Source: a virus
IMG/VR virus record: IMGVR_UViG_3300037264_001719
Coordinates: 18,332 to 82,331 of that record
Direction: 5' to 3' (one strand)
DNA length: 64,000 nucleotides
In this document: one piece after another, positions 17,612 to 51,397 of the stretch
How positions within the stretch are numbered: the first letter of the stretch is position 1
How the letters are laid out: every line of letters starts with the position of its first letter
Notes under the pieces: model-generated
The model's input: only the letters and a program-made list of their open reading frames with translations
What the model was told of the DNA's origin: nothing
The model's database searches: none
Position numbers and translations under genes: made by a program

Positions 17612-18898
17612 ATGGGAAGAGGAACACCATGCTTCCCCATTGGGGGGTCGGGACTTGGGAGTATCATTGTCCCGATCATTCCGGGGGTCGGCTTCGTCAA
17701 TAGCCCGCCCATCGCAGGGAGCGAGATTCTCGGGAATTTCTCCCCGCCGTCTCCGGTGTCCCCCAGCGAAATAAATCCTCCGAGGGTGAACCCCAACTTC
17801 AATGTGATGGGGCTTACCCCGGAGAACAACATCGTGAGGGAAATCTACGTCGAGGAGACGGTGGGGTTCGAGCTTCCTCTCGCCCGGATTATCCTCAACA
17901 ACGTGGACAAGACCTTGAAGTCCACCATCATCGCCAAGGAGCAAACCAGCTTCAAGGTCATGCTCGGGTGGAGGAACCCCGGAATCCAGAATCACGGAAC
18001 CTTCATCGTTCAACGTCCCAAGTTCAAGTACATGGATGGGCAAGGGTCGCTCACCGTCGAGATCATCGCTTACGGAGAGGCGGTCAAACTCGGTGCAACC
18101 GAACGTCGAGAGACCTACAAGAAGCAGAAGGACAGCGACATCGCCCGGAAGATCGCCTCTCGGAATGGTTTCGGGGCGGACGTGGAGACCACGGAGCCCG
18201 CCCATGAGCAGGTGATCCAAGCGAACGAGAGCGACTACAAGTTCCTTGCCCGGAGAGCCAAGCTCTACGGGTTCTTCCTCTATGTGGAGGACGGCATCCT
18301 TCACTTCCACCGCCCCCGTCCTCGGGAGAGCGGGATCAAGCTCACGGCTCTTGAGCCGGGGCAGGGGAACCTCACGAATTTCGCGGTCCATTCTCGGACC
18401 TTCATGCGCGGTCTTAGTCTCCGGCTTTCCCAAGTCGATCCGGTCACGAAGGAGGAGTTCGAGGAGCGTTCGAGCGAGGAGCCCGATCCTGTTCAGGGCT
18501 TCTTCGAGCACAAAAACTGGAGGGACCTCGTGACCATCCCCGGGGTTGGACAGCCGGAGAAGTTCATTACGAACGAAGGTCACGAGCAGAATCGCCCCCT
18601 CCTCAAACGGCAGATCGACCGGATGGCCCAATCGACCCGGTACGTCATCTCCGGGCGCGGAACTTCCATCGGGCTCGAAACCCTCCGGGCCAACGACTTC
18701 ATCCGAATCGAGGGGATCGGGCGGTCGAGCGGGAGATATTTTGTCGTCAAAGCGATCCACCAGCTTTCCGGCAAGGATGGACACAGCGTACAATTCGAGG
18801 TGGTTCGGTCGGGGGCAGGGGAGAACTCCGGGCTTGATCCCCGGACACAGGAATTGACGGCAACGAGTCCCGAGAGCGCAGGGACAGTCGCCCTGTAG
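17612..18898 (+). CDS. Baseplate hub protein (gpD / gp27 / VgrG N-domain-like)
   Basis: Encodes 428 residues. The phage late-control gene D family pattern is clear from residue about 75 onward: VGFELPLARIILNNVDKTL, TFIVQRPKFKYMDGQGSLTV, KDSDIARKIASRNGF, then QANESDYKFLARRAKLYGF and FFLYVEDGILHF, the central gpD/VgrG signature. The trimeric hub carries the spike. The first 70 residues are Gly/Pro-rich and probably flexible. The C-terminus (NDFIRIEGIGRSSGRYFVVK) is the last beta domain. Confidence 0.9.
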   Translation: MGRGTPCFPIGGSGLGSIIVPIIPGVGFVNSPPIAGSEILGNFSPPSPVSPSEINPPRVNPNFNVMGLTPENNIVREIYVEETVGFELPLARIILNNVDKTLKSTIIAKEQTSFKVMLGWRNPGIQNHGTFIVQRPKFKYMDGQGSLTVEIIAYGEAVKLGATERRETYKKQKDSDIARKIASRNGFGADVETTEPAHEQVIQANESDYKFLARRAKLYGFFLYVEDGILHFHRPRPRESGIKLTALEPGQGNLTNFAVHSRTFMRGLSLRLSQVDPVTKEEFEERSSEEPDPVQGFFEHKNWRDLVTIPGVGQPEKFITNEGHEQNRPLLKRQIDRMAQSTRYVISGRGTSIGLETLRANDFIRIEGIGRSSGRYFVVKAIHQLSGKDGHSVQFEVVRSGAGENSGLDPRTQELTATSPESAGTVAL

Positions 18899-29313: not shown

Positions 29314-30138
29314 ATGCCAGCGGTACGTTTCGTTGCGAGCGGAGGCTCTGCGAAGGGGCTTCTCGAAATCACCGGGGCGCTCTCAGCCCTCATCGAACAA
29401 GGAAACAGCATCGAGATCGGGGCTGGAACTTCGGCGGGAGGGGTGATCCTTGGAGCACTTGCCTCCGGGCGGTCGCCTTCGGAGATCAAGGACACCCTCA
29501 TGGGGATGGACTTCACCCGGTTCATTTCGACCGGGCTCTGGTCGAAGCTCCGGCTTCTCTCCTCCGGCAATCTCTCGAACGGAAAAGCCCTCCTCAAGTT
29601 CTTCGAGGAGTTCACTAAGGGGAAGACCTTCGGGGACTCCGGTTTCGATATCAGGATCACCGGGGCGGATTACAGCTTCGGACAGCCGCAGGTTTTCGCC
29701 AAGCAGACCCACAAGCAAATGCCTCTCGCGCTTGCCATGCGGATCACTTCGGCCATGCCTCTCGCTTTCGACGCCGTGGAGTACGACGCCCGCTGGTTTA
29801 AAGACGGCGGGGTGTACGCGCATATCCCCGTGGAGGCATCCCGGGAGCCGTTTCGGACAGTCATCTTTGCTCTCGCCCAAGACCCTGCCAGCATCAAGCG
29901 GGAAGCATGGGGGGCCGAACCCGGAATCATCCGCGAGATCGGTAGGACGGTAGATTTGCTCGTAGATGCGAATGTGAAAGCTGAACTGGACAAAGCACCG
30001 CCAGATGCTATAAAGGTGTTCTCGGATGGCCTTGGGTTTTCGGCCTTCAAGTTCGATTTCACGAGGGCCGAGAAGGAGCGTCTTTTCGCCCACGGGCATG
30101 AACTCATGGGCGCGGCGCTAAAGGTCGCCGGGCTGTAG
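29314..30138 (+). CDS. Patatin-like phospholipase
   Basis: Encodes 274 residues. The patatin fold's three landmarks are present and correctly spaced: an oxyanion loop GGSAKG (10-15), nucleophile elbow GTSAG with Ser40, and the DGG motif with Asp164 of the catalytic dyad (preceded by AMRITSAMPLAFDAV, a typical family block). Such enzymes hydrolyse acyl ester bonds of phospholipids. It sits between fibre genes in the structural cluster, so it could be packaged, delivered as an effector, or help lysis. There is no signal peptide. The active site appears intact. Confidence 0.9.
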   Translation: MPAVRFVASGGSAKGLLEITGALSALIEQGNSIEIGAGTSAGGVILGALASGRSPSEIKDTLMGMDFTRFISTGLWSKLRLLSSGNLSNGKALLKFFEEFTKGKTFGDSGFDIRITGADYSFGQPQVFAKQTHKQMPLALAMRITSAMPLAFDAVEYDARWFKDGGVYAHIPVEASREPFRTVIFALAQDPASIKREAWGAEPGIIREIGRTVDLLVDANVKAELDKAPPDAIKVFSDGLGFSAFKFDFTRAEKERLFAHGHELMGAALKVAGL

Positions 30139-37288: not shown

Positions 37289-37301
37289 TCTAAAGTGGTG
37301 A

Positions 37302-39557
37302 ATGCTTCGATTTGTTCAACTTCGTCGTATCGAGTCCGATCTCTATAAGGCCGAGGCGATTTTCTTCGCCACGGGGATCGGGGACTCGGACGTGTCCGAC
37401 AACCGCGACACGCTCAACGTCCAAGCCCCCGATCACTTCTCCGGGGGAGACCTCCTCAAGATGATGTACCGGAGGGGGAAATGGATTGAGACCCGGGTTT
37501 ACGAACATCCCAAGCGAGCGAAGGAAGTCCTTTCGGGGGAATCGGAGGAGCCGAAGGCGTCGGAGGAGTCCGAGACCTTCGTTCCCATCATTGTTTCCGG
37601 GCCTCTAAATTACAAACCGGAGTGGGCGGACTTCCCTCCGGTTGAACGCCTCCGGGCATGGATCGCGGCTTCCGACCGCCCGACCATCTCCATCCTCATC
37701 CCCTCACAGGATCGTATTCCCCTGCTTATGGCCTGCCTCCTCTCGATTGAAGAAACGACGCGGGGATACGCAGTCGAAGTCGTGATCGGGGATTCGGGGA
37801 GCAAGTCGGATACTTTTAATTTCTACAGGAGCATTGGAATCCGGGTCGTTCACTTCAGCCAGCCTTTCAACTTCTCCGTGGTCTGTAATGGACTCGCCGC
37901 CGTAGCGAAGGGGGAGCACCTTCTTTTCCTCAACAACGACACCAAGGCGCTCACCCCCGGATGGCCGAAAGTTCTTATCGGGAGACGGAATGAGGTGATC
38001 GGGGCCGTCCTTGTTCACGACAAAGACCCGCAACTGATTCACCATGCCGGGCTCGAAATCGGACCCCATCCGAATTCAGGCAACGTGGTCCCCTTCTATT
38101 CCGGGCACACCGGATACCGGACGCCCATTCACGAGATCGACCAACTCGACACGAAGAAGCCCATCGCCGTGACGGGGGCCTTCCTCGCTGTCTCCAAGAA
38201 GGTATTTTTTCGGCTCGGGGGGTTCGACGTTGCCTTCCGGCTCGACCTGCAAGATGCCGACTTCTGCATTCGGGCGAGGGAGATCGGAGTCAAAGTGTCA
38301 GTTTCGACTTCGGTCGTCTTCTCCCATGTCTCAAGCGGTAGCCGGGAAGGGGGTCAACTGGACTTCCCTGAGAACAACTGGAAGTTCTTCTCCGGCAGGC
38401 GCGGAAAGTCGATCTACCAATGGGATGCCGTGGGGAATGTTTCTCCCCGTAAGGAACAAGGGCGAGTGCTCATCATCGACGATCACGCCCCTGATCCGAA
38501 CGTGGGGCTTCATGTCCCCCGGGCCAAAAGTATCCTTGAGTTCATGGCGGCGCTCGATTACCGGGTGTCTGTGTTTCAGACGCTCAATCAGAACGTAAGC
38601 CGGGAATGGCTCGACCGGATGCTCTATCTCGGTATCGATGTGGTCACGGATTCCCCGGATTTCAACGCCTTCTCTCGGGAACGAGCGGGGTTTTACGACA
38701 CGGTGTACATCTCCCGGCCCCACAATCTCCGGCGCTTCTTCAACCTCGCCCGATCCCGATTCCCGAAAGCGCAGATCATCTACGACGCCGAGGCCCTCTT
38801 CTATGTTCGGGAGAAACTCAAGGCCGCACTTTTCGGGCTCAACCCCGAACGATCCAACGCGGAGGAGCGTCTCGAACTTGACATGATGGGGCCTGCGGAC
38901 AAGATCGTTTCTGTTTCTGAGGCCGAGAAGAAGATCATCGAAGCGTCCCGTCCTGCCCTTCGGGGAAAGGTCCATGTGTGGGGGCACTCTCTCCCCCTCC
39001 GGCCCACGTCGGGCGGATTCAGGGATCGCCGGGGAATCCTTTTCACGGGGAATCTCAATGCGGATAATCCCAACGAGGATTCCATCATGTACTTCGCGCA
39101 GGAAATCCTGCCGGAAGTCCGCTCGAAGATCGAATGCTCCCTCGCCATCACGGGGTCCAATCCTACCGAGAGGGTGCGGAATCTTGCGGACGGTTCAATT
39201 CGTGTGACGGGATACCTCACCGAGAGCCAGCTTCTTGATTACTACAAGAGCTATCGAGTCTTCATCGTCCCCACGAGATTTGCCGCCGGAATCCCGTGGA
39301 AGCTCCATGAGGCCATGAGTTACGGAATTCCTGCCGTGGTGACAGACCTCATCGCCGCGCAACTCGGACTCAAGGATGGACAGGGAGTTCTCGTCGCCCG
39401 AACCCCCAAGGAGTTTGCCCACAAAGTCATCCGGCTTTACACCGAGGAGACGCTCTGGAACTATGTCCGAATGACCTGTCTTGATACCATCCGTGCCACT
39501 TGCGATCCTGAAACCATGAAGAAGGAACTCGGGAAGATATTGTCGAGGAAGGAATGA
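37302..39557 (+). CDS. Two-domain glycosyltransferase (GT2 then GT4)
   Basis: Encodes 751 residues. Residues about 128-370 form a GT-A (GT2) domain (PTISILIPSQDRIPLLMACL, NNDTKALTPGW near 210, DLQDADFCIRAREIGVKVSV). Residues about 386-751 form a GT-B (GT4) domain (RVLIIDDHAPDP, RGILFTGNLNADNPNEDS near 576, IRVTGYLTESQLLDYYKSYR, PWKLHEAMSYGIPAVVTD). The first 125 residues are unassigned. Such tandem enzymes extend polysaccharides with two sugar types. In a phage they may modify host O-antigen or decorate the virion. The next gene starts inside its stop region. Confidence 0.88.
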   Translation: MLRFVQLRRIESDLYKAEAIFFATGIGDSDVSDNRDTLNVQAPDHFSGGDLLKMMYRRGKWIETRVYEHPKRAKEVLSGESEEPKASEESETFVPIIVSGPLNYKPEWADFPPVERLRAWIAASDRPTISILIPSQDRIPLLMACLLSIEETTRGYAVEVVIGDSGSKSDTFNFYRSIGIRVVHFSQPFNFSVVCNGLAAVAKGEHLLFLNNDTKALTPGWPKVLIGRRNEVIGAVLVHDKDPQLIHHAGLEIGPHPNSGNVVPFYSGHTGYRTPIHEIDQLDTKKPIAVTGAFLAVSKKVFFRLGGFDVAFRLDLQDADFCIRAREIGVKVSVSTSVVFSHVSSGSREGGQLDFPENNWKFFSGRRGKSIYQWDAVGNVSPRKEQGRVLIIDDHAPDPNVGLHVPRAKSILEFMAALDYRVSVFQTLNQNVSREWLDRMLYLGIDVVTDSPDFNAFSRERAGFYDTVYISRPHNLRRFFNLARSRFPKAQIIYDAEALFYVREKLKAALFGLNPERSNAEERLELDMMGPADKIVSVSEAEKKIIEASRPALRGKVHVWGHSLPLRPTSGGFRDRRGILFTGNLNADNPNEDSIMYFAQEILPEVRSKIECSLAITGSNPTERVRNLADGSIRVTGYLTESQLLDYYKSYRVFIVPTRFAAGIPWKLHEAMSYGIPAVVTDLIAAQLGLKDGQGVLVARTPKEFAHKVIRLYTEETLWNYVRMTCLDTIRATCDPETMKKELGKILSRKE

Positions 39558-40297
39558 AGATTCACGTTTACATGATTTTCTACAACGAGGAAGTGATCCT
39601 TCCTTACTTTCTTCGGCACTACGGGGCGTTTGCTGAGAAGATCGTGTGCTTCGACAACCGGAGCACCGACCGATCCGCCGCCATCGTGGACGCCCATCCC
39701 AAGACGGAGAGGATCGTTTTCGACACGGGCGAAGGGATGTTCGACCGGATTCATCTCGATCTCAAGTCCGAGTATCGGAAGTCCCGGGGGAAGGCGGATT
39801 GGGTCATCTGCGTGGATTGCGATGAGTTCATCTACCATCCCGATATTGTCGGTCTTTTGACGAAGTATAAAAAGGAAGGGATCACCTACCCCAAGGTGCA
39901 GGGATTCGAGATGGTCTCCGAGCACACGCCTGTCGGGAACAAGCAAATCTTCGAGGAGGTTCGGAACGGATTCCCGAACGAAGGCTACGCCAAGCGCATC
40001 CTTTTCGCCCCTGAACTGGAAATCCAATTCGCCCCGGGATGTCACACCGCAAATGTCTCGGGCTGCGTCGTTGAAAGTCCGCAGGCCGATCTCAAGCTCC
40101 TCCATTACCGATTCTTGGGGAGGGACTTCTTCATCAACAGGTCCATCGAGCGGAGGGCGAGACTCAGCGAGGAGAACAAAAAGTGCGGATGGGGAACCCA
40201 CTACCTCAACCCGGATGCGTACTTCTTGAACTTGTTCAACGAAGTGAGTGCTATCTCGAAGCCCGTCGTTACGGAACTTCCAGTCCAAAGGTCTTGA
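39554..40297 (+). CDS. Glycosyltransferase (GT2/GT92-like)
   Basis: Encodes 247 residues starting in the 4-base overlap with the previous gene. IHVYMIFYNEEVILPYFLRH, then EKIVCFDNRSTDRSAAIVDA and ADWVICVDCDEFIYHPDI (the DxD-type metal site) are typical of the glycosyltransferase family 2/92 fold. The C-terminus holds several His and Arg residues (KLLHYRFLGRDFFINRSIER). It belongs to the sugar-modification island. Its 3' end overlaps the minus-strand glycosyltransferase by 29 bases. Confidence 0.85.
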   Translation: MKIHVYMIFYNEEVILPYFLRHYGAFAEKIVCFDNRSTDRSAAIVDAHPKTERIVFDTGEGMFDRIHLDLKSEYRKSRGKADWVICVDCDEFIYHPDIVGLLTKYKKEGITYPKVQGFEMVSEHTPVGNKQIFEEVRNGFPNEGYAKRILFAPELEIQFAPGCHTANVSGCVVESPQADLKLLHYRFLGRDFFINRSIERRARLSEENKKCGWGTHYLNPDAYFLNLFNEVSAISKPVVTELPVQRS

Positions 40298-41555
40298 GGA
40301 AGGGCAGAAGTTCAGCGATCTTGTCCTGCCACTTCCAGCGGGCGTGTGCGTTTGCGCTCGCGGCGATTCCTCGATCCCTTGCCATTTCCCGGCTTGACGC
40401 GCAGAGTTCCATCAGGTGAACGAGGTGGTCAAGGTCGGGCTCGGCCTGATCCCCTGCATCGCAGGAAGAGGGAATCCACTTCGCCACTTTTAGAGGGAGC
40501 GTTCCGTTCGGGATCGAAGTGTCCTTGTAACCGAAAGCGTCGGTGGCGATACAGGGGAGCCCCGTTGCTTCGCATTCCAGCTTCGGGAGTCCGAAGCCCT
40601 CGGCACGGCTCGGGAACACCCCGCAGTCCATTTCCGCGAGAAGCCCCTTGAGTTCCATCGGGGGGTAGCTCTTGAAGTCCCACACGATGCGGGGATCGGT
40701 TGCCGTCTTCTTCCGGTACTCCTTCGACTCGGGGTTCTCCCATTGGGCCTTCATGTAGAGCCGGATGTCCTGCCGCTTGATTCGGCGCATCGCCTCTAGC
40801 AGAAGATCGGTCCCCTTCCGAGCTTGCACGTCCGCAAAGTGAAAGAACGTAAACGGCTTCCGGTCAAGCGGTCGGTCAATGCGCGGGAATTGTTCGGGGT
40901 CGATGCCGTGCCCGAAGACGTGAACTGGGCAGGTGAGACCGGAGTCGATGATCGCTTTTTTCGTTGCTTCGGATGTCGCCAGCATCGCATCGAAATGTTT
41001 GAAGAAGTCCATGAGCCAACGGGCGGGGAGCGTTCCTTCGCATTGAAAGTAGCCCATGAGGGCGTGCGACAGGCGCTCGGCCTTGTGAAACGGTTCTGGC
41101 GGAACACGCCTCCGAGCATTGAGGATCGTGATTGTTCTGTCGATGTCCTCGGTCATGTGGGCTCTTGGGAACGTCACGTCCCCGTCCACCTTGCCCCACG
41201 AAAGCATCTTCACGGGAATCTTGGCGGCGAGAAGCTCCCGAACGACGGCATAGTTGAACCACTTGAAAGAGCCGCCGTATCCGAATCCAAGTCCGCCCCA
41301 CGTCAGACCCCGAACCTTCTGCGTGAGTCGTCTCGCCGCCCGAACTTCCTTCATGAGCGGGGCCTTGAGTTCGATCTTCCCTTCCCGGTAGCAGTAGTCG
41401 TTGACGAGGTTCCTCAGCCCTGCGTAGGTTCCTTTCAGGAAAACGAAATCCCCTCGGAGGTCCGAAGAATCGGGCATGACCCGCCAACGATGGGTTGATT
41501 GGATTTCCCGAATTCCGGGGCTGATTTCGGGGCCGAGTTGAATGACCTGTTTCAT
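40269..41555 (-). CDS. Glycosyltransferase (GT4 family), minus strand
   Basis: Encodes 428 residues on the minus strand, the only convincing reverse-strand gene. The C-terminal half carries the GT4 pattern: KPFTFFHFADVQARKGTDLL, DPRIVWDFKSYPPMELKGLL and SRAEGFGLPKLECEATGLPC (the EGFGLPxLE motif). The N-terminal half contains GGLGFGYGGSFKW. It is convergent with the preceding glycosyltransferase and overlaps its end, which suggests later insertion as a self-contained cargo gene. An independent promoter is expected upstream near 41.6 kb on the minus strand, but I see no clear one. Confidence 0.88.
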   Translation of the reverse strand: MKQVIQLGPEISPGIREIQSTHRWRVMPDSSDLRGDFVFLKGTYAGLRNLVNDYCYREGKIELKAPLMKEVRAARRLTQKVRGLTWGGLGFGYGGSFKWFNYAVVRELLAAKIPVKMLSWGKVDGDVTFPRAHMTEDIDRTITILNARRRVPPEPFHKAERLSHALMGYFQCEGTLPARWLMDFFKHFDAMLATSEATKKAIIDSGLTCPVHVFGHGIDPEQFPRIDRPLDRKPFTFFHFADVQARKGTDLLLEAMRRIKRQDIRLYMKAQWENPESKEYRKKTATDPRIVWDFKSYPPMELKGLLAEMDCGVFPSRAEGFGLPKLECEATGLPCIATDAFGYKDTSIPNGTLPLKVAKWIPSSCDAGDQAEPDLDHLVHLMELCASSREMARDRGIAASANAHARWKWQDKIAELLPFLKTFGLEVP

Positions 41556-41563
41556 CTGGAGCC

Positions 41564-41592
41564 TTGACGAACGAGAGAGTATAGCATAGAGT
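41564..41592 (+). promoter_or_regulatory. Candidate promoter for the metacaspase transcript
   Basis: TTGACG (41564-41569) and TAGAGT (41587-41592) are separated by 17 bases in the divergent gap between the minus-strand glycosyltransferase and the + strand gene at 41631, which has the ribosome site GAGGAGGTGA. Confidence 0.5.
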
Positions 41593-41630: not shown

Positions 41631-41903
41631 ATGCCCGGTCCCATCATCACGGACGACATCGTTTTCCAGAAGATCAGTTCGCCCCTCGGCCAGTCCAACG
41701 GGAGCCCCTTCGACAAGGCGCTCGCCAACCGGGACAAGATTCTCACGGGCTACATCAAGAAGATCAACCGCAGGCAGGTCACGCTCGCTCCGTCGCAGAC
41801 GGTCCTCCTGTCCGACTCGTGGGGCAACGAGGTGCAGAGCAACATCGCCGCGATCTTCCCCGGGCTGGGCGATTTCGGGCCGGGCGGCGGGCCGCTGTCG
41901 TAG
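41631..41903 (+). CDS. Small hypothetical protein before the metacaspase
   Basis: Encodes 90 residues with an excellent GAGGAGGTGAGAT start region. The middle is basic and helical (LANRDKILTGYIKKINRRQV); the C-terminus is a Gly/Pro tail (FGPGGGPLS). It is 48 bases upstream of the metacaspase and could be a partner, inhibitor or substrate, but nothing beyond adjacency supports that. Confidence 0.7.
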   Translation: MPGPIITDDIVFQKISSPLGQSNGSPFDKALANRDKILTGYIKKINRRQVTLAPSQTVLLSDSWGNEVQSNIAAIFPGLGDFGPGGGPLS

Positions 41904-41951: not shown

Positions 41952-42887
41952 ATGAAGAAGGCCCTGCTAGTCGGCATCAACGCCTACCCGACCTCCCCGC
42001 TTCGCGGCTGTCTCAACGACGTGGAGGACTGGCACCGCCTCATCACCACGGTCGGACAATACAGCCCGGACAACGTGCGAGCCCTGTGCGACAGCCGGGC
42101 GACCACGCAGGCCATCAAGGACAGGCTGACGTGGCTCCGCGAGGGTATCCGGCCCGGCGATGAGGTGCTCTTTCAGTTCAGCGGTCACGGATCACAGGTC
42201 CGTGACCGTGGTGTTCTGGATGAACTCGCGGACCACATGGACGAGATCATCTGCCCGGTCGATCTCGACTGGGACCAGAAGCTCATCACCGACGACGATC
42301 TTTCGGACTGGATCGCCGGATTCCCCAAGGGCGTCCGGGTCATCGTCGTTCTCGACTCCTGCCACTCGGGGACGGGGACGCGAGACTTCCGTCCTCCGAT
42401 GGAGAACCCCCACTACAAGGCCGACCGATACCTCCCGCCTCCGCTGGACATCGAGCTTCGCGGAAGATCGGTCGAGGGGAGCCGCGCCCCCATGAAGCGT
42501 TCGCGGATCGGCTACGGGAACAAGTCCGGGTTTGCCCGGAAGATGAAGGCCAAGAGCCGAGGCTGGGTTCCGTGGTGGTTCCGTTTCCGCATTCGTCCGA
42601 AGCCGAAGCCCGTGATCGTTGCGCCTGTCGCTCCGGCTGTTCCGGGCGGGAATCACGTCCTCATCTCCGGGTGCCGGAGCGATCAGACCAGCGCCGATGC
42701 CTTCATCAACAATCGGTACAACGGGGCGCTGACCCGGTACTTCGTGAACGAAGTGACGCAGAGCCCGGGGAGGAAACTCGCGGAGGTTCATGCGGCGGCG
42801 AAGGCTGCGATTCTCTCCGGCGGGTTCACTCAGGAATCCCAGCTTGAGGGGCCACCTTCTTACATGGACATCCCCTTTTTCGGGTAG
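41952..42887 (+). CDS. Metacaspase (caspase-like cysteine protease, C14)
   Basis: Encodes 311 residues. The p20-like domain is textbook: KKALLVGINAYPTSPLRGC, catalytic His79 in FQFSGHGSQ, catalytic Cys137 in VLDSCHSGTG, and the p10-like GNHVLISGCRSDQTSADAF with its substrate-pocket residues. A basic, Pro-rich linker (about 165-210) separates the two parts. Metacaspases cleave after Arg or Lys and act in bacterial and lower-eukaryote stress or death pathways. There is no signal peptide, so cytoplasmic action is expected. A phage copy might trigger, mimic or block host death or help process virion proteins. Confidence 0.93.
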   Translation: MKKALLVGINAYPTSPLRGCLNDVEDWHRLITTVGQYSPDNVRALCDSRATTQAIKDRLTWLREGIRPGDEVLFQFSGHGSQVRDRGVLDELADHMDEIICPVDLDWDQKLITDDDLSDWIAGFPKGVRVIVVLDSCHSGTGTRDFRPPMENPHYKADRYLPPPLDIELRGRSVEGSRAPMKRSRIGYGNKSGFARKMKAKSRGWVPWWFRFRIRPKPKPVIVAPVAPAVPGGNHVLISGCRSDQTSADAFINNRYNGALTRYFVNEVTQSPGRKLAEVHAAAKAAILSGGFTQESQLEGPPSYMDIPFFG

Positions 42888-42890
42888 TCC

Positions 42891-43403
42891 ATGTCTGAAG
42901 ATACGAAGACCCACGGGAAGCCTTCGGCATGGGGCCTCAAGAGTCTCATGGCGGTCATCGGGGGCGGACTCCTCAGTACGTTCGCCACGATCATCTGGAC
43001 CGGATTTGAGAAGACCCACGAAGCCATCGGCCAGTTGACCTCCAAGGTCAAGGAACTCGAAGACGAACGGAGCAAGTGGGGCCTTCTGACGGAACTCCAC
43101 AACCACATGATCGCGCTCGACAAGAAGGCGACGATCAATGAGGTCAATCACGAATGGGTGAAATGGACCATCGGGGTCGGGCGAATTGAAGTTCCTGTCT
43201 CCGTAATCCCCGCGCCGGAGCCGAAACCGGAGCCGGGGCCGAAACCTGTACCTGTCGTACCTCCCGATCCGCCGCCGCAAAAAACGGAACCGCCCAAGAA
43301 GTTGCCTTTCGATCAGCAAAAGAAGCCCCTCGACCCCGACGACTTGAGGCGACTGTACGAACAGAAGTACCCGAACGAATTCTTCAAGAAGGGCGAAAAA
43401 TAG
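42891..43403 (+). CDS. Membrane protein with coiled coil and proline-rich tail
   Basis: Encodes 170 residues. One N-terminal membrane span (19-39, LMAVIGGGLLSTFATIIWTG) is followed by a coiled coil and a TonB-like proline tract (about 106-133, PEPKPEPGPKPVPVVPPDPP) and a charged end. The topology (short cytoplasmic N-terminus, long periplasmic part) recalls i-spanins and TonB-like linkers. It abuts the metacaspase stop by three bases and overlaps the next gene (TAGTG). Function not established. Confidence 0.72.
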   Translation: MSEDTKTHGKPSAWGLKSLMAVIGGGLLSTFATIIWTGFEKTHEAIGQLTSKVKELEDERSKWGLLTELHNHMIALDKKATINEVNHEWVKWTIGVGRIEVPVSVIPAPEPKPEPGPKPVPVVPPDPPPQKTEPPKKLPFDQQKKPLDPDDLRRLYEQKYPNEFFKKGEK

Positions 43404-44176: not shown

Positions 44177-44740
44177 ATGAGGCGGTGCCTCTTCGTGCGT
44201 CTGATGACGCTGGCGGTTGTTTCCCTGATGCTCCCCGGATGCGGTTCAACTGGAGGACTCCAGATCGACCCGCAGGACGCGGCGAAGTACGTCCAGATCG
44301 GCGCGGAGAAGGCGGTGGACCTCGGCCTCAAGGCCCTCTCCAAGGACGCGGCGAGCTTCACCAACGTCAAGAAGTGGAGCGGCGAAGCCAAGGACGCCAT
44401 CGACAAGGCGGTTCTCCCCCTGTTCACCGGAGCAGGCGTCGGAGACGTGACGCTGGCGACGGCGAATCAGGCTCTCCAGATTCTCGACGAGAAGATCAAC
44501 CCTGTATTGAAGGGCGTGATCCAACTCGGCGTGAACACCGCGCTCGCTTACATCAAAATGCCCGCCAACCCCACGGACAAGCTCTCGCCTGATGCGAAGG
44601 CGATCATCGTCGCCCTCTTCAACGGGATGAGTGCGGGGGCCGGGAACTTCGCCAAGTGGGATGGTCCTGCCAGCCGCGATCCCAGCCCCGTGCCGCCCGT
44701 CGTCTCCCTCGGGTGGAACTGGGGAGGCAAAGGCCCGTAG
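44177..44740 (+). CDS. Predicted outer-membrane-type lipoprotein
   Basis: Encodes 187 residues. A signal peptide (MRRCLFVRLMTLAVVSLMLP) ends in the lipobox LPGC with acylation at Cys22. The mature part is alanine-rich and helical (DAAKYVQIGAEKAVDLGLKA, LQILDEKINPVLKGVIQLG) and ends Gly/Pro-rich. Phage lipoproteins are commonly o-spanins or superinfection-exclusion factors; it is long for an o-spanin. Translation is strong (AAGGAGG). Its stop overlaps the next GTG (TAGTG). Confidence 0.85.
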   Translation: MRRCLFVRLMTLAVVSLMLPGCGSTGGLQIDPQDAAKYVQIGAEKAVDLGLKALSKDAASFTNVKKWSGEAKDAIDKAVLPLFTGAGVGDVTLATANQALQILDEKINPVLKGVIQLGVNTALAYIKMPANPTDKLSPDAKAIIVALFNGMSAGAGNFAKWDGPASRDPSPVPPVVSLGWNWGGKGP

Positions 44741-46038
44741 TGTCGGCAGAGGTTCTCCCCGGAGCCGTCCGAATCCCGGTCAAGCCCAAGCGTAACGAAG
44801 GCGAGTTCCGCGTCCTCGCCATGCGGAGGTCCGGGCACCACGGGTTCATTCGGTGGTTGCTCGGGCATTTCTCCGGCGAGGTCGTTTTCCAAAATGATGT
44901 CTCCGTCCTTCGAGCCGAGAACACCTCCACTTTCTGCCCCTCTGCGAACGGGACTCGGCAGGCGTTCGTATTCAACGTCGAGAACCCCGACATCCCGAAC
45001 GTCATGAGCCAAATCTCCTCGGATTGCTGGAGAACGAACAAGGGGCCGAGCGACAAGACGCACACCCTTGTCCTCCTGCGAGACCCGTACAACTGGATTG
45101 CCAGCCGGATCAAGGCATGGGGAGCCCGGGAGCAGTACGGAGGCACCTCCATCCTTTCGGAAGTCGCGCTCTGGAAGCAACAAGCCCGGGAGTTTCTCGG
45201 GGAGACGGAGTATCTCCCGAAGGATACGCTGTTCGTCTCCTACGTTGAATGGTTTCGGAGCGCGGATTACCGCCGGGGGATTTCCGAGAAGCTCGGGCTT
45301 TCCTTCACCGACAAAAACCTCGGGATCAACATGAGGCTCGGGGGGAGCAGTTTCGATTCTATCGACAGCGACCCCCAAACGCTCAATGTCCTTGGCCGAT
45401 GGAAGAACTTCCTCCAGCACAAGGGCTACCTGTCCCTTTTTGACCGGGAACTTCTCGATCTTGCGGACAGAATCTTCGGAGATTTCTCCAAAGACATTCG
45501 AGCAAAACTTCCCCGCGCCCGTGGGGTCACGGTTTGGCTTACAGGGCTCCCCGGGGCAGGAAAGACCTCCATCGCCCGGGAGCTTGAGACCCGTCTCGGG
45601 GAAAAGAATTTCCTCGAAGTGCTTGACGGGGATCAAATGCGTCGCCTGCTCTGTTCCGACCTCGGGTTCTCCAAAGAGGATCGGGATGAGAACGCCCGGA
45701 GGATCGGCTATGCGGCGAGCATCCTGACGCGGAGGGGGGCAGTTGCCGTTGTATCGGTCATTTCCCCCTATCGGCAATCTCGGAGGGAAGCCCGCGAGAT
45801 GTCGAGCGACTTTGTGGAGGTTTACGTTCGTTGCTCCGTGACCGAGTGCCGCCGAAGAGACCCCAAAGGTCTTTACCTCAAGTCTCAGCAGGGGAATCTC
45901 AAGGGATTGACCGGGGTCGATGCGCCTTACGAAGTCCCTGAATCCCCGGAGATCGTCGTGGACACCGAGGCTCAGTCCCTTGAAGCCTGCGTCGTGCAGA
46001 TCATCAAGTATCTGCGGGACAAGGCCCTCGTGAAGTAA
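44740..46038 (+). CDS. Sulfotransferase / adenylylsulfate (APS) kinase fusion
   Basis: Encodes 432 residues from GTG 44740, which overlaps the lipoprotein stop; an upstream in-frame ATG at 44656 lies inside that gene. Residues 25-255 look like a sulfotransferase: LAMRRSGHHGFIRWLLGHF fits the 5'-phosphosulfate loop and LLRDPYNWIASRIKAW the 3'-phosphate motif. Residues 263-432 are an APS kinase with Walker A GLPGAGKTS (269-277), LDGDQMRRLL, ENARRIGYAA, VISPYRQSRR and RRRDPKGLY. APS kinase makes PAPS, the sulfotransferase donor, so the fusion couples donor synthesis to transfer. APS itself must come from a host ATP sulfurylase. Confidence 0.88.
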   Translation: MSAEVLPGAVRIPVKPKRNEGEFRVLAMRRSGHHGFIRWLLGHFSGEVVFQNDVSVLRAENTSTFCPSANGTRQAFVFNVENPDIPNVMSQISSDCWRTNKGPSDKTHTLVLLRDPYNWIASRIKAWGAREQYGGTSILSEVALWKQQAREFLGETEYLPKDTLFVSYVEWFRSADYRRGISEKLGLSFTDKNLGINMRLGGSSFDSIDSDPQTLNVLGRWKNFLQHKGYLSLFDRELLDLADRIFGDFSKDIRAKLPRARGVTVWLTGLPGAGKTSIARELETRLGEKNFLEVLDGDQMRRLLCSDLGFSKEDRDENARRIGYAASILTRRGAVAVVSVISPYRQSRREAREMSSDFVEVYVRCSVTECRRRDPKGLYLKSQQGNLKGLTGVDAPYEVPESPEIVVDTEAQSLEACVVQIIKYLRDKALVK

Positions 46039-46041
46039 CTC

Positions 46042-47373
46042 ATGGCGTCCTATTTCATCGACCTTGACGGGACGTTCTTCCTCTTCCCATCTCAGACCCC
46101 TGCGGAGAACGCCGTCGAGACCGTCCGAAGGCTCGCCTCCGAGGGGCACAGCATCATTTTCACCACGCTTCGGACCCGAAGTGATCCGAGGCTCGGGGAG
46201 ACGGCCACTCTTCGGAAACTCGCGGAACTCGGCGTCCCCTACAAGAGCATCGTGTGGCACGTCAAGTCTCCGCGCATCGTCGTGAACGACGACGGGGCCT
46301 TCGCATTCAATCACCCCCGGGATTCTGCGCTCACCTATGACCGCCTCCGGGTCAAGGACGTGATCCGCAGGAAGGTGGAAGCCGCGCTCGGAATGCTCGC
46401 GTGGGTCGGACTCCGCTACTACATCATCAACCCCGAGTTCATCGACGCGGACGATTACATCCAGACGATGCTTATTCTGGAGTCTCTTCTCGATCATGAT
46501 GGAGTTCACCACTTTGATCTGGTCCAGCGGTATCGCCAAGGTCGGAAGACTTCGATCAACGGAAACGACATCCCCATGAACGGCGCACTCCACCTCGGCC
46601 AGCTTCACAAGCTCCGGCAGAGCAACGACCCGGGGTACTTCGATCAAGGCGGGATCACCACCGGGGCGTGCATGAAAGTCTTCGGGATAGCGGCGTACTA
46701 CCCGAAGTTCCACGACCTCGTGTGGGCGGTGAATCAAGTCACTCGGATCACCCACGGATCGGCGGAAGCCCGTCTCGCGGCGATCCTCACGGCCCTCCGG
46801 TTCCGCCACGCACTTGAGGACATTGATGACCCGGACCTTCTCCTTCTGGACTTCTCCCGTGCGGCCCATGCGGTCGGACTATTTGGAACTCCTGCGTTTG
46901 ATGTAGTGTTTCGCGCCGCGAACAAGGCCCGGAACATTATTCGGACGGGGCGGGCGTTTGAGCAACTGGTCGAGCAGGTCGGTCTTATGTATCTGTGCTG
47001 GAGTTGCCCGGTGTCGGCGGTGTTCTGGTCTTACGTCCTCGACGATCACTACAAGGGATCGTTCGAGACCATCGGCTCTGACAAGCAATTCAAGCCGGAC
47101 GGAAAGCTCATCCTCGTGGACGAGGCGGTGAAGAAGGAGTACCTCGACTACCTCATCCAGACCAACCAGAGGGAGTTTGTTCAGCCCTACGTTTGGGAGT
47201 ACAACGAGCAGGGCAGGCAGGACTCCGACACGTTCTTCTCCATCGCGTTCTCCATTCGCGCCTGCCGTCACCCCGAGTTCCTCGCGCCCAAGGAACTTGA
47301 GGAAGCGAGAGCGGCGTTCGGAGACGACTGGACTCCTGCGATCAAACGGCTCATCGCCCGCCTGTACTGGTAG
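46042..47373 (+). CDS. HAD phosphatase / ADP-ribosylglycohydrolase (DraG/ARH) fusion
   Basis: Encodes 443 residues. Residues 1-100 are a small HAD domain: FIDLDGTFF with Asp7 and Asp9, threonines at 41-42, and IVVNDDGAF with Asp83-Asp84. From about 110 the sequence follows the ARH fold: IDADDYIQTMLILESLL (metal acids), GGITTGACMKVFGIAAYY, RITHGSAEARLAAILTALRF, and near the end RQDSDTFFSIAFSIRA (the DxDT metal motif). ARH enzymes remove ADP-ribose from proteins or nucleic acids. The N-terminal ARH helix is degenerate. A role in reversing host ADP-ribosylation defence is plausible inference. Confidence 0.78.
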   Translation: MASYFIDLDGTFFLFPSQTPAENAVETVRRLASEGHSIIFTTLRTRSDPRLGETATLRKLAELGVPYKSIVWHVKSPRIVVNDDGAFAFNHPRDSALTYDRLRVKDVIRRKVEAALGMLAWVGLRYYIINPEFIDADDYIQTMLILESLLDHDGVHHFDLVQRYRQGRKTSINGNDIPMNGALHLGQLHKLRQSNDPGYFDQGGITTGACMKVFGIAAYYPKFHDLVWAVNQVTRITHGSAEARLAAILTALRFRHALEDIDDPDLLLLDFSRAAHAVGLFGTPAFDVVFRAANKARNIIRTGRAFEQLVEQVGLMYLCWSCPVSAVFWSYVLDDHYKGSFETIGSDKQFKPDGKLILVDEAVKKEYLDYLIQTNQREFVQPYVWEYNEQGRQDSDTFFSIAFSIRACRHPEFLAPKELEEARAAFGDDWTPAIKRLIARLYW

Positions 47374-47898: not shown

Positions 47899-49008
47899 AT
47901 GAGGTTCGGACTGGTGAACGATCTGATTCGCGCCCACGAGGAGGCGGAAAATCCGGTCATGCTCTGGAGTCCCCCGGGGGTGGGGAAGTCGAGTCTCGTC
48001 AAGCAGTTGTGCGACGATGACGGGATCAAGAACATCGACATCCGGCTGTCGTTGTTGAACCCAGTTGACCTTCGAGGTATCCCTGTCGTGCAAGGCGACA
48101 AGGTGGTGTGGGTTCCCCCCGTCTTTCTGGTCAAGCAGGGACCTTGCCGTTTCTTCTGCGACGAAATCAACGTCGCGCCGCCTGCAACGCAGGCGTGCGC
48201 CTATCAATGGTTCCTCGACAAAAAGATCGGGGAGTGGGCGATGGACTTGACGCCCATGAAGACCAAGGCGGGGAACACTCGTCCGGCGCAGACCATCCTC
48301 GGCGCAGGGAACCGGGCGACCGATCAAGCGTTTGTTCACCAGATGCCTGCCCCTCTCCGCAACCGGGTGGCGCACATCGAGGTCGAGCCGAACTTCGAGG
48401 ACTGGCGGGAGTGGGCGTACAAGGCGGGCATCCACCGCTACGTCATCAACTATCTGACTTACACGGCCCGGGTGGGCGTCGATATCAAGGGCGTCTCGGC
48501 CTCGGAGACGGGCCTCCTCTTCTTCTTCGACCCCAAGCAACACGCGGCAGGCTCGTTCCCCACGCCCCGTTCGTGGGAGATGGTGAGTCGTTTCATCACG
48601 CGGAGCCCGAAGTACCGGACCAACACCGAAGCGGTCGCGGGCATGGTCAGCGCGTCGGTCGCTTCGAGTTTCACGGCGTTCGTCAAGGTCGCGGACGAGC
48701 TTCCGAACGCGGAGGAAGTTCTCGCCGGGAAGGACGCCAAGCCGCCCACCGAGCCTTCCGCGAAGTACGCTTTCTGCGGGGCTCTGGCGGCATCGCTCAT
48801 TCGGGCGAAGAAGGAAGACCGCGTGAAGGCGACGCAGAATGTCGCGGCCTACTGCGTGAATCGGTGGGGCGACGATGCCGAGTTCGCGGTCCTCACGATG
48901 AAGGATTTCGGAAGAACGCCCGAGTACAAAGAAATCTACCGTTCGGTCATCGTGTCGAAGGAGTGGACCCAGTTCACGAAGACCTTCGGGGACCTGCTCG
49001 AAAGCTAA
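47899..49008 (+). CDS. MoxR-type AAA+ ATPase
   Basis: Encodes 369 residues. Walker A is MLWSPPGVGKSSLV (about 21-34) and Walker B FFCDEIN (85-91); a sensor-like GAGNRATDQA and an arginine-bearing PLRNRVAHIEVEP follow. MoxR AAA+ proteins act as chaperones with VWA-domain partners to insert metals or remodel complexes. The partner gene lies 11 bases downstream. The consensus promoter lies just upstream. Confidence 0.9.
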   Translation: MRFGLVNDLIRAHEEAENPVMLWSPPGVGKSSLVKQLCDDDGIKNIDIRLSLLNPVDLRGIPVVQGDKVVWVPPVFLVKQGPCRFFCDEINVAPPATQACAYQWFLDKKIGEWAMDLTPMKTKAGNTRPAQTILGAGNRATDQAFVHQMPAPLRNRVAHIEVEPNFEDWREWAYKAGIHRYVINYLTYTARVGVDIKGVSASETGLLFFFDPKQHAAGSFPTPRSWEMVSRFITRSPKYRTNTEAVAGMVSASVASSFTAFVKVADELPNAEEVLAGKDAKPPTEPSAKYAFCGALAASLIRAKKEDRVKATQNVAAYCVNRWGDDAEFAVLTMKDFGRTPEYKEIYRSVIVSKEWTQFTKTFGDLLES

Positions 49009-49019
49009 GAGAGGAAGCT

Positions 49020-50732
49020 ATGCTCATTAGCCCAGTCAAGATCGAGGGTAGGGGACCTTTCGCCAAGGCAAAGGTCCAGCTTGTCCTCAATCACCAGTTC
49101 TTCGGGGTTCTCGCCTGTCACCTCCCGACCGTTCCGGTGTCCCCTGCCGTCTTCGCGGCGGTGGGGGCACCTCCTACGGCGATGGTGGACGGGAAGAAGA
49201 TTTACTACAACCCGAAGTGGGTCGAGACGCTGACCGACAGGCAGAGGCTCGGACTTCTCGCGCACGAGGTTCTCCATCCGGCCCTGCAACACCTGTGGCG
49301 GCGCGGGAACCGGAAGCACCACCTTTGGCTCATGGCGACGGATTACGCCGTCAACGACATCATCATGCGGACGATGGACTCCAAGGGGCATCCGGCATTC
49401 GAGTTGCCTCCCGGGGGTCTCTACGACACGAAGTTCACGGGGATGGCCGCAGAGCAAATCTACGCCGTCCTCCTCAAAGAGGAGCAGGAGCAGGAGGAGG
49501 AGGCGAAGAAGAACGGGAATCAGGGACAGCCCAAACCCGGACAGGGGAGGGGTCAGGCGCTCGACGGCCAGTTGGAGAGGCCGCTCGAAGGCGGCGATGC
49601 CAAGCCGAAGAAAGGGAAGAAGGGGAAACCCCAGCCCAAGAAGGACAAGGCCGAGGGCGGGGAAGGTGCGGGCAAGGACAAGCCCGAAGCAGAGCAGGAC
49701 AAGAAGGACAATGGCGGCAAGGACGGAGAGAAGGCCCCTCAGCAGGACTCCGAGGATGAGCCCGGCCTGCGCGACGAGATCGGGGAGGTCCCCCCGGGCG
49801 ATCTGGAAGACAAGCCCGAGGACGGGAAGGACGGCGAAGGGGCGGGGGAAGATGGTGACGAGTCCGAAGATACGGAGGGTGAGGGAGATGATGGTGAAAC
49901 CGATGCTGAGGGTGAAGGCGACGGAGAGGGAGACGCTGGGGATGCTGGTGATTCTGACAATGGGGGCGATGCAGAAGCTCCCGAGGATCAGACTCACGGC
50001 GAGGGCGGTAAATTCGATCATGCGTGCGGTGACATCGAGGAGGCCGACGCGGAGCTAGAGGAGCATTGGCGCGGGGTTCTGAATCAGGCGGCGATGGTCG
50101 CCAAGGCCCGGGGCAATCTCCCCGCCGCTCTCGCCCGACTTGTCGAGGATGTCTCCGCGCCCAAGGTTCCGTGGCAACAAGTAATCGAGCAGTACGTCAA
50201 CGAAGTCGTGCGCGACGATTACGACATGATGAAGCAGGACCGCCGCTTCATGCAGAGCGGCATCTACTTTCCCGAACTCCAGTCCAACGCAACGTCGGTC
50301 GCCATCTTCGTCGATACGTCCGGCTCCATCGGGGAGAAGGAGATCAAGGCGTTCGTGTCCGAGATCGTGGGCATCCTTCGGTGCAGGGGAATCAAGTCGG
50401 CCCGGATCATCGCGTGCGACGACAAGATTCATGAGGGCGGGGATAACACGATCACTCCGACCGACACTCTCCCCGAGAACTACCCGGGGGGCGGCGGGAC
50501 GGATTTCCGTCCCCCCTTCAAGCGACTCCGTGACGATCCGCAGGGGGAGACGCCCGCGCTCATCGTGTACCTGACGGACATGATGGGCACGTTCCCCGAC
50601 AAAGACCCGCTCGGGACGCCGACGATCTGGCTTGCGTCCTGCCCGCCTTGGATGAAGGAGGCGGATATTCCCCAGCCTCCGTTCGGGACGGTGATCCCTT
50701 ACGATCCGCTGACCGATGATGATGACGAATAG
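49020..50732 (+). CDS. Metallopeptidase-like / VWA-domain partner protein
   Basis: Encodes 570 residues from ATG 49020 (GAGAGGAAG upstream). The N-terminal domain carries LLAHEVLHPALQHLWRRG with His82, Glu83, His86, a zinc-metallopeptidase-like HExxH site of the DUF2201 type. Residues about 160-350 are a Lys/Pro then Glu/Asp/Gly-rich low-complexity linker. The C-terminal VWA domain has the MIDAS DTSGS at 432-436 and a second acidic loop (LTDMMGTFPDKDP). It pairs with the MoxR ATPase, as in bacterial MoxR-VWA systems. Confidence 0.85.
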   Translation: MLISPVKIEGRGPFAKAKVQLVLNHQFFGVLACHLPTVPVSPAVFAAVGAPPTAMVDGKKIYYNPKWVETLTDRQRLGLLAHEVLHPALQHLWRRGNRKHHLWLMATDYAVNDIIMRTMDSKGHPAFELPPGGLYDTKFTGMAAEQIYAVLLKEEQEQEEEAKKNGNQGQPKPGQGRGQALDGQLERPLEGGDAKPKKGKKGKPQPKKDKAEGGEGAGKDKPEAEQDKKDNGGKDGEKAPQQDSEDEPGLRDEIGEVPPGDLEDKPEDGKDGEGAGEDGDESEDTEGEGDDGETDAEGEGDGEGDAGDAGDSDNGGDAEAPEDQTHGEGGKFDHACGDIEEADAELEEHWRGVLNQAAMVAKARGNLPAALARLVEDVSAPKVPWQQVIEQYVNEVVRDDYDMMKQDRRFMQSGIYFPELQSNATSVAIFVDTSGSIGEKEIKAFVSEIVGILRCRGIKSARIIACDDKIHEGGDNTITPTDTLPENYPGGGGTDFRPPFKRLRDDPQGETPALIVYLTDMMGTFPDKDPLGTPTIWLASCPPWMKEADIPQPPFGTVIPYDPLTDDDDE

Positions 50733-50806: not shown

Positions 50807-51397
50807 ATGGGCGAAAATAGGGACTACCACCTCGGGTTCAACTTCGAGAGCGACGAGCCCACGGCCCGCTACTCCGCCTCGAAGGGCTACCGCGACACGG
50901 CGTACTTCTCCAAGATCACGGAGAATCTCTTCCTCGGGCCGGAGCCCACCGCGCAGGACGCGGACACCCTTCGCAATCTCGGGATCAAGAACATCCTCTC
51001 CGTGGCGAAGGAGTGCCACGACGAGTGGATCGGCTACGAGGGGAAGTTCAACCTCGTCTACGTCGGGATGCACGATCACAGCCCGCTTCCTCCGTGGCTG
51101 GCGAAGCAGGCCCTCACCACGCTCCGCGAGATGCTCAAGCGCGGGAAGACTCTCGTGCATTGTGGCATCGGGGTGTCTCGGTCCCCGACGACCATCGCGC
51201 TCTACTGGTACGCGATTGGTGAGACGGATTCGGTCGCGGAGGGCATCCAGCGCCTCCAGAAGATTCGGCCCTGCGTTGCTCCGAATCGGATCGTGGACGA
51301 CAATCTGATGCAGATGGTTTTCGCCCTCCGGCGTAGGTGGGCGAAGGGAACAACGGGGATTGACTCGACGCCCCGGGTTTCTACTGTCGTGAACTAA
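50807..51397 (+). CDS. Dual-specificity protein phosphatase
   Basis: Encodes 196 residues. The active site VHCGIGVSRSPTT carries Cys119 and Arg125 of the HCxxGxxR(S/T) signature. A preceding acid (HDHSPLP region, Asp90) can act as general acid. The KITENLFLGPEPTAQDADTL opening is the family hallmark of DSPs. It would remove phosphate from Tyr or Ser/Thr of host or phage proteins. It has its own promoter. Confidence 0.9.
   Translation: MGENRDYHLGFNFESDEPTARYSASKGYRDTAYFSKITENLFLGPEPTAQDADTLRNLGIKNILSVAKECHDEWIGYEGKFNLVYVGMHDHSPLPPWLAKQALTTLREMLKRGKTLVHCGIGVSRSPTTIALYWYAIGETDSVAEGIQRLQKIRPCVAPNRIVDDNLMQMVFALRRRWAKGTTGIDSTPRVSTVVN

Follow-up and report, generated by a model that had tools for sequence, protein, structure and literature searches.

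A complete metacaspase in a tailed phage and its relatives in several phage-only lineages

A tailed phage represented by an IMG/VR contig encodes a complete metacaspase, and phage metacaspases as a group comprise several phage-only lineages that circulate among tailed phages, many of them unrelated. The gene lies in a 64,000-nucleotide stretch, hereafter "the window" (positions 18332–82331 of the 82,331-bp contig; Table 1). Caspase-type proteases are usually treated as machinery of host death and defense, and the initial annotation of this DNA expected them in hosts rather than phages—a premise that the recurrence of metacaspases in many phages and in phage-only clades does not support. The natural roles of prokaryotic metacaspases are, to our knowledge, largely unknown. 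Complete metacaspases maintained under selection in many tailed phages raise the possibility that a bacterial virus may itself run the execution step, and they offer a directly testable system for studying how prokaryotic metacaspases are used.

Table 1. Metacaspase gene, protein domains, and neighboring features (window coordinates).
Feature	Position	Strand	Basis and remarks
Metacaspase gene, 311 aa (p20, linker, p10)	41952..42887	+	ATG start; ORF, Pfam, PDB sequences, AlphaFold, Foldseek; 84 viral relatives
p20 domain, residues 1–141, with His79 and Cys137	41952..42374	+	Solved-metacaspase alignment, AlphaFold
Basic linker, residues 142–233, partly disordered	42375..42650	+	Low pLDDT over most of it; composition
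p10 domain, residues 234–311, with SGCRSDQTSADA and invariant Gln294	42651..42884	+	Alignments, model
Small upstream gene, 90 aa, without known family	41631..41903	+	Directly before the metacaspase in L047 and L048
Promoter-like site TTGACG-17-TAGAGT before the small gene	41564..41592	+	Weak: 2 found vs. 0.5 expected in regional shuffles
170-aa protein, candidate membrane partner	42891..43403	+	Membrane helix predicted at the N terminus; coiled-coil-like segment; tail rich in Pro
Predicted lipoprotein, lipobox LPGC	44177..44740	+	43% identity in L047, 1.4 kb downstream of the L047 metacaspase
MoxR-type AAA ATPase	47899..49008	+	Conserved in L047
DUF2201 metallopeptidase-VWA protein	49020..50732	+	Conserved in L047

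Protein identity and conserved residues

It is close to certain that the open reading frame encodes a genuine caspase-family protease and, within that family, a metacaspase. The protein matches Pfam Peptidase_C14 (C14; E = 2.1e-22; score 80.4 bits, cut-off 21.4), and a sequence search of the PDB retrieves solved metacaspases of plants, trypanosomes, and the yeast type (1.3e-26). An AlphaFold model built from a 54-sequence alignment (pLDDT 82.6, pTM 0.78) retrieved metacaspases in Foldseek at 9e-20, the best matches being Arabidopsis metacaspases 9 and 4, a Geobacter protein, the Candida and yeast metacaspases, and TbMCA2. As the definition of metacaspases (C14B) has it, a caspase-fold p20 is followed by p10 on a single chain. 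His79 (codon CAC, 42186–42188) sits within SGHG, Cys137 (codon TGC, 42360–42362) within DSCHSG, and residues 239–250 form the p10 block SGCRSDQTSADA. The complete phage-borne metacaspase first called from this dyad and p10 block is thus borne out by the ORF, Pfam, PDB, and AlphaFold/Foldseek evidence. Anything proposed for the protein beyond "protease" draws on genomic context and is worded conditionally below.

The linker between the domains is rich in Lys and Arg (23% over residues 142–233 and 31% over 168–222), and its pLDDT falls below 50 at residues 142–155 and 180–203. We regard it as a candidate self-cleavage region, with R144—7 residues past the catalytic Cys and in a disordered stretch—as a candidate cleavage site.

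The initial annotation had staked its reading in part on retention of the dyad in relatives, and His79 and Cys137, together with Gly80, Asp135, and Gln294, proved invariant in 84/84 viral and 57/57 bacterial sequences. In TbMCA2, the proposed S1 pocket consists of Cys92, Asp95, Ser156, and Asp211, and the Ca2+ site of Asp173, Asp189, Asp190, and Asp220 (PMC4357240). The pocket equivalents in the window protein, assigned by motif and spacing, are C20, D23, S77, and D135, which are retained in 79, 81, 82, and 84 of the 84 viral sequences, respectively; a conserved acidic pocket of this kind would predict basic P1 residues (Arg/Lys) for phage metacaspases. Counterparts of the Ca2+ ligands, placed by motif and spacing rather than by coordinates, are D94, D114, and D115 (conserved in 78, 82, and 52 of the 84), with R144 at the D220 position. 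Because that position is occupied by a basic residue (Arg or Lys) in 76 of the 84 viral and all 57 bacterial sequences, Ca2+ activation of the phage metacaspase family is in question.

Type I/II metacaspases (MEROPS C14B: Yca1/Mca1, T. brucei MCA2, Arabidopsis MC4 and MC9) resemble the window protein in p20–p10 order, His–Cys dyad, Cys/Asp/Ser/Asp S1 pocket, and, as judged by spacing, three of the four Asp residues of the Ca2+ site. Unlike them, the window protein has no N-terminal prodomain, carries a 92-residue basic linker, and is phage-encoded; unlike TbMCA2 in particular, it has Arg in place of the fourth Ca2+ ligand (Asp220, +7 from Cys).

The carrier phage and its close relatives

The contig codes for portal, capsid, tail sheath, tape measure, and baseplate proteins, which confirms the tailed phage supposed by the initial annotation, here one of myovirus-like type. 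Gene order in a second phage, L048, follows that of the window starting at the capsid gene, past sheath and baseplate, and up to the genes that precede the metacaspase. The metacaspases of L047 and L048 are 59 and 55% identical to that of the window, and the structural module, the metacaspase, and the small upstream gene are common to all three. Among these three metacaspases, NG86 (Nei–Gojobori) dN/dS is 0.19–0.32, the pattern of a coding sequence under purifying selection, at a dS (>1) near saturation. The glycosyltransferase genes of the window (~37300–41555) look like an insertion, because they are missing between the tail genes and the metacaspase pair in L047 and L048.

The small upstream gene had been put forward as a candidate partner. 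It is indeed a stable companion in L047/L048 (60 and 76% protein identity over the aligned parts); however, it is restricted to this lineage (three loci in all), and a role as general partner of phage metacaspases was rejected on that ground. A structure model of its product (pLDDT 51) was too poor for use.

Several other genes of the window deserve mention. A patatin-like phospholipase (29314–30138; Pfam 9e-24) lies inside the tail/structural region; it is distantly similar to PlpD, CapV, and other patatins, and no counterpart was seen in L048. Downstream of the metacaspase are a protein whose adenylylsulphate kinase domain follows an additional N-terminal region (44740–46038), an ADP-ribosylglycohydrolase-like protein (46042–47373), and a dual-specificity phosphatase-like protein (50807–51397; Pfam DSPc 1.7e-12) that is conserved in L047.

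Distribution and phylogeny of phage metacaspases

Only one of 50,697 annotated phage records has a match to the metacaspase (tblastn), namely LR745208.1, an uncultured phage of 485 kb in which the gene is unannotated. No PHROG matched the window protein at E 0.01, and in the viral structure library (BFVD) only giant viruses gave clear matches, and phages none. Alignment-based scans of IMG/VR succeeded, returning 41 and then 80 loci; owing to overly specific patterns, a scan of viral contigs with a single sequence gave no hits. After filtering, 84 non-redundant viral sequences remained, alongside a bacterial set of 57. The contigs of the relatives are metagenomic and some are only fragments; three loci of unclear virus type (L115, L117, and L119) were excluded from the neighborhood statistics.

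A phage terminase (phrog_2) occurs in 27 of 50 metacaspase-bearing records. The giant-virus (NCLDV) capsid family had no match in the same 50 in a search without a positive control, and the case that these are not giant viruses therefore rests on the terminase matches. Three terminase matches contain in-frame stops (G001:C1:7759–9438, G045:C1:7977–9431, and G049:C1:31319–32758) and perhaps represent interrupted genes or an altered code.

On a quick maximum-likelihood tree, whose bacterial rows are a biased sample picked by likeness to the phage alignment, the phage/bacteria label changes 13 times vs. 44.5 times in shuffles. Several phage-only clades have strong SH-aLRT values, the window, L047, and L048 together forming one (99). 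These clades argue that the metacaspase has long been kept among phages and is not a one-off capture.

HNH inteins of 373 and 381 aa reside in the metacaspases of L032 (L032:4801–6795) and L040 (L040:6516–8594), respectively, with matches to the intein profile PF14890 at 9.9e-17 and 6.5e-21. Their insertion point is identical—directly after SGHG, in the catalytic His loop. The unspliced proteins would presumably be inactive. The inteins share 49% identity and their host proteins 36%. Inteins favor conserved sites in genes that have homing targets within the same gene pool, and their presence here fits a gene common in phages.

A literature search confined to open-access papers found no description of phage metacaspases. 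A survey of 224 jumbo-phage genomes does not mention caspases (PMC7824862), and metacaspase operons of Clostridium botulinum have been noted as phage-related (PMC3501461). The phage set is thus apparently undescribed so far, while metacaspases of giant viruses are already known.

Genomic neighborhoods

No single partner gene common to all phage metacaspases was found. Among the four nearest neighbors, Pfam and PHROG searches identified endolysins, HNH nucleases, glycosyltransferases, and papain-like proteases, each at two to three loci. The neighborhoods share a tendency rather than a gene: small membrane proteins (up to 220 aa with a predicted membrane helix) make up 60 of 284 genes within two same-strand positions of the metacaspase vs. 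132 of the 1490 remaining genes of these loci (p = 1.7e-8, Fisher test), and their genes are ~2.7-fold commoner beside phage metacaspases than in local controls. When each cluster contributed a single member (48 clusters at 50% identity), the immediate neighbors gave 19.8 observed vs. 6.9 (0/4000 resamplings), and the enrichment persists at the coarsest clustering (26 clusters; fraction 0.002); clustering lessens phylogenetic dependence without removing it. Both the gene calls in the relatives (a simple codon-usage script) and the helix predictions (hydropathy) are crude. Bacterial relatives show no such enrichment (12/143 vs. 52/484, p = 0.53).

A small membrane-protein gene lies within 60 bp of the metacaspase in 20 of 81 loci, including the window, and three loci (L033, L098, and L105) have a homologous coiled-coil membrane protein ~20 bp or less away. 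Seven metacaspases, all of one clade, carry a fused C-terminal membrane helix, and that of L009 has a membrane helix at its N terminus; an anchor is absent from all 57 bacterial metacaspases and likewise from the window protein. One bacterial metacaspase (L174:1196–1996) has a C-terminal extension that resembles, by eye, a peptidoglycan-binding domain.

In the window itself, the start codon of the gene for the 170-aa predicted membrane protein lies 3 bp after the metacaspase stop codon, and a predicted lipoprotein gene is nearby. No family was found for the 170-aa protein, and it is not conserved in L047/L048. Enrichment of lipoproteins near phage metacaspases was not significant, and homology of the window lipoprotein to lipoproteins beside other phage metacaspases was rejected as unconvincing (E 0.031).

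Endolysins of five families were sought across 50 whole records. They are adjacent to the metacaspase, or nearly so, in L010 and L037 (amidases) and in L035 and L036 (M15); yet of the ~12 whole records in which an endolysin was detected, only 3 place it 1 kb or less from the metacaspase, the distance in the others being 5–158 kb. None of the five families, and no lysis family, matched in the window's contig. As most detected endolysins are distant and adjacency holds in few phages, the view of the metacaspase as strictly a lysis-cassette gene was dropped in favor of the broader association with membrane genes.

Proposed function and alternatives

We tentatively favor, as a reading that falls somewhat short of an even chance, a late, host-directed, membrane-linked Arg/Lys protease that aids lysis or takeover, and prefer it to virion processing or action against abortive infection. 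The metacaspase would be expressed late, to judge by its same-strand position in the structural region; it would be catalytically active, a cysteine endopeptidase that cleaves proteins of the host behind Arg or Lys, with possible self-cleavage in its linker; and it would act at or near the bacterial membrane and thereby help lysis or envelope takeover. The membrane site is proposed because of the membrane-gene neighbors and the anchors fused in one clade. Against it, the window protein is unanchored and the membrane gene downstream is not kept in L047/L048, a small membrane protein encoded close to a phage gene may have nothing to do with lysis, and endolysins are mostly distant, with none of the tested families in the window's contig.

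A bolder generalization, which we consider possible but less probable, is that metacaspases are general membrane-directed effectors of tailed phages, proteases adapted to phages and tethered either through a fused anchor or through a small partner protein, that start host dismantling through lysis or ClpS-fed degradation of nicked proteins. If true, phages, and not only hosts, would use a caspase-type execution enzyme.

The two roles raised by the initial annotation, in virion processing and in abortive infection, drew no direct support, in that no defense partner adjoins the gene and the neighborhood statistics point to membrane and lysis-type contexts rather than to virion genes. We consider it unlikely that the enzyme processes virion or other late proteins, e.g., by trimming a tail or other structural protein. 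In that scheme, the 90-aa upstream protein would be its substrate, its scaffold, or its inhibitor. The metacaspase pair does end the structural/tail module on the same strand, collinearly in L048 and L047; the L032 metacaspase stands directly behind tail sheath- and tube-like genes (annotated by eye); and the window has, 5 kb downstream, a MoxR ATPase and metallopeptidase-VWA pair of the kind proposed to process virion proteins (PMC7824862). However, neighbors across phages are heterogeneous and seldom structural, the upstream gene is confined to its three loci, membrane anchors of other clades are ill-suited to capsid maturation, and nearly all annotated phages do without a metacaspase. A search for a head protease drew attention to a 545-aa protein behind the portal, which has no match in Pfam, PHROGs, or PDB sequences.

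Similarly doubtful is a role in counter-defense or superinfection, in which the protease would cleave host abortive-infection proteins or serve as a phage-borne defense against competitors. Caspase-like proteases are defense effectors in bacteria, and the PADLOC caspase model matches the window protein at 4.6e-22; moreover, three viral contigs (L042, L044, and L045) have small TIR-like genes, seen by eye and left without confirmation by family searches, beside more distant caspases. These three are outlying, though, and two of them match the EACC1-type model at 7.6e-24 and 3e-21 vs. 1.6e-8 for the window. Scores for NF047832 fall below its cut-off of 140 bits in every case (window 34.3, L042 75.9, L045 84.4). 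TIR-caspase and EACC1-type systems resemble the window's in placing a caspase-fold protease in a bacterial setting; unlike theirs, the window metacaspase adjoins no TIR, EACC1, or other signaling gene (Pfam, PHROGs, PADLOC, NCBIfam). No integrase was found in the contig, which is possibly incomplete, and a role in lysogenic suicide is therefore unlikely.

Rather improbable is an N-degron route, whereby the protease would nick host proteins and ClpS would deliver the new N-termini to ClpAP for degradation. Its basis is a subclade of large phages (L072, L078, L084, and L090) in which a C-terminally membrane-anchored metacaspase is clustered with Hsp20, ClpS, and ClpX: ClpS is present in 4/4, 73–1328 bp from the metacaspase, Hsp20 in 3/4 within 1.4 kb, and ClpX in 3/4 within 3 kb, L078 being a short contig. 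The pairing of a protease that makes new N-termini with an adaptor that reads them is suggestive, and there is a published proposal that ClpS of phages hands targets to the host's ClpAP (PMC7824862). Nonetheless, the window's contig has no ClpS, only five of 50 records have one—the fifth, outside this subclade, far from the metacaspase—and the route would apply to one subclade at best.

Recent chance capture of a host gene without phage function, for which the abundance of bacterial relatives at 35–41% identity might speak, is nearly excluded by purifying selection, the same gene place in three phages, the phage-only clades, the intact dyad in all 84 sequences, and the inteins inside two phage copies.

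Comparison with bacterial and viral metacaspases

The bacterial metacaspases (Desulfobacterota, Nitrospirota, and others; L127–L206) have, at 35–41% identity, the same dyad and the same R144. Unlike the phage copies, those sampled show neither membrane-gene bias nor anchor, and most phage sequences fall in separate clades. Metacaspases of medusavirus, Heterosigma akashiwo virus, and Fadolivirus are likewise virus-encoded and are structural matches; giant-virus metacaspases have been proposed to modulate host death (PMC6450098), although these viruses, unlike the window phage, have eukaryotic hosts.

The metacaspase of LR745208.1 shares 36% identity over 99% with that of the window (tblastn), with the dyad present, and differs in its neighborhood, where an 823-aa VWA protein lies near the gene. 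Homologous VWA-domain proteins (659–823 aa) occur near the metacaspase in L003 (L003:11597–14068), L005 (L005:9811–12267), and L020.
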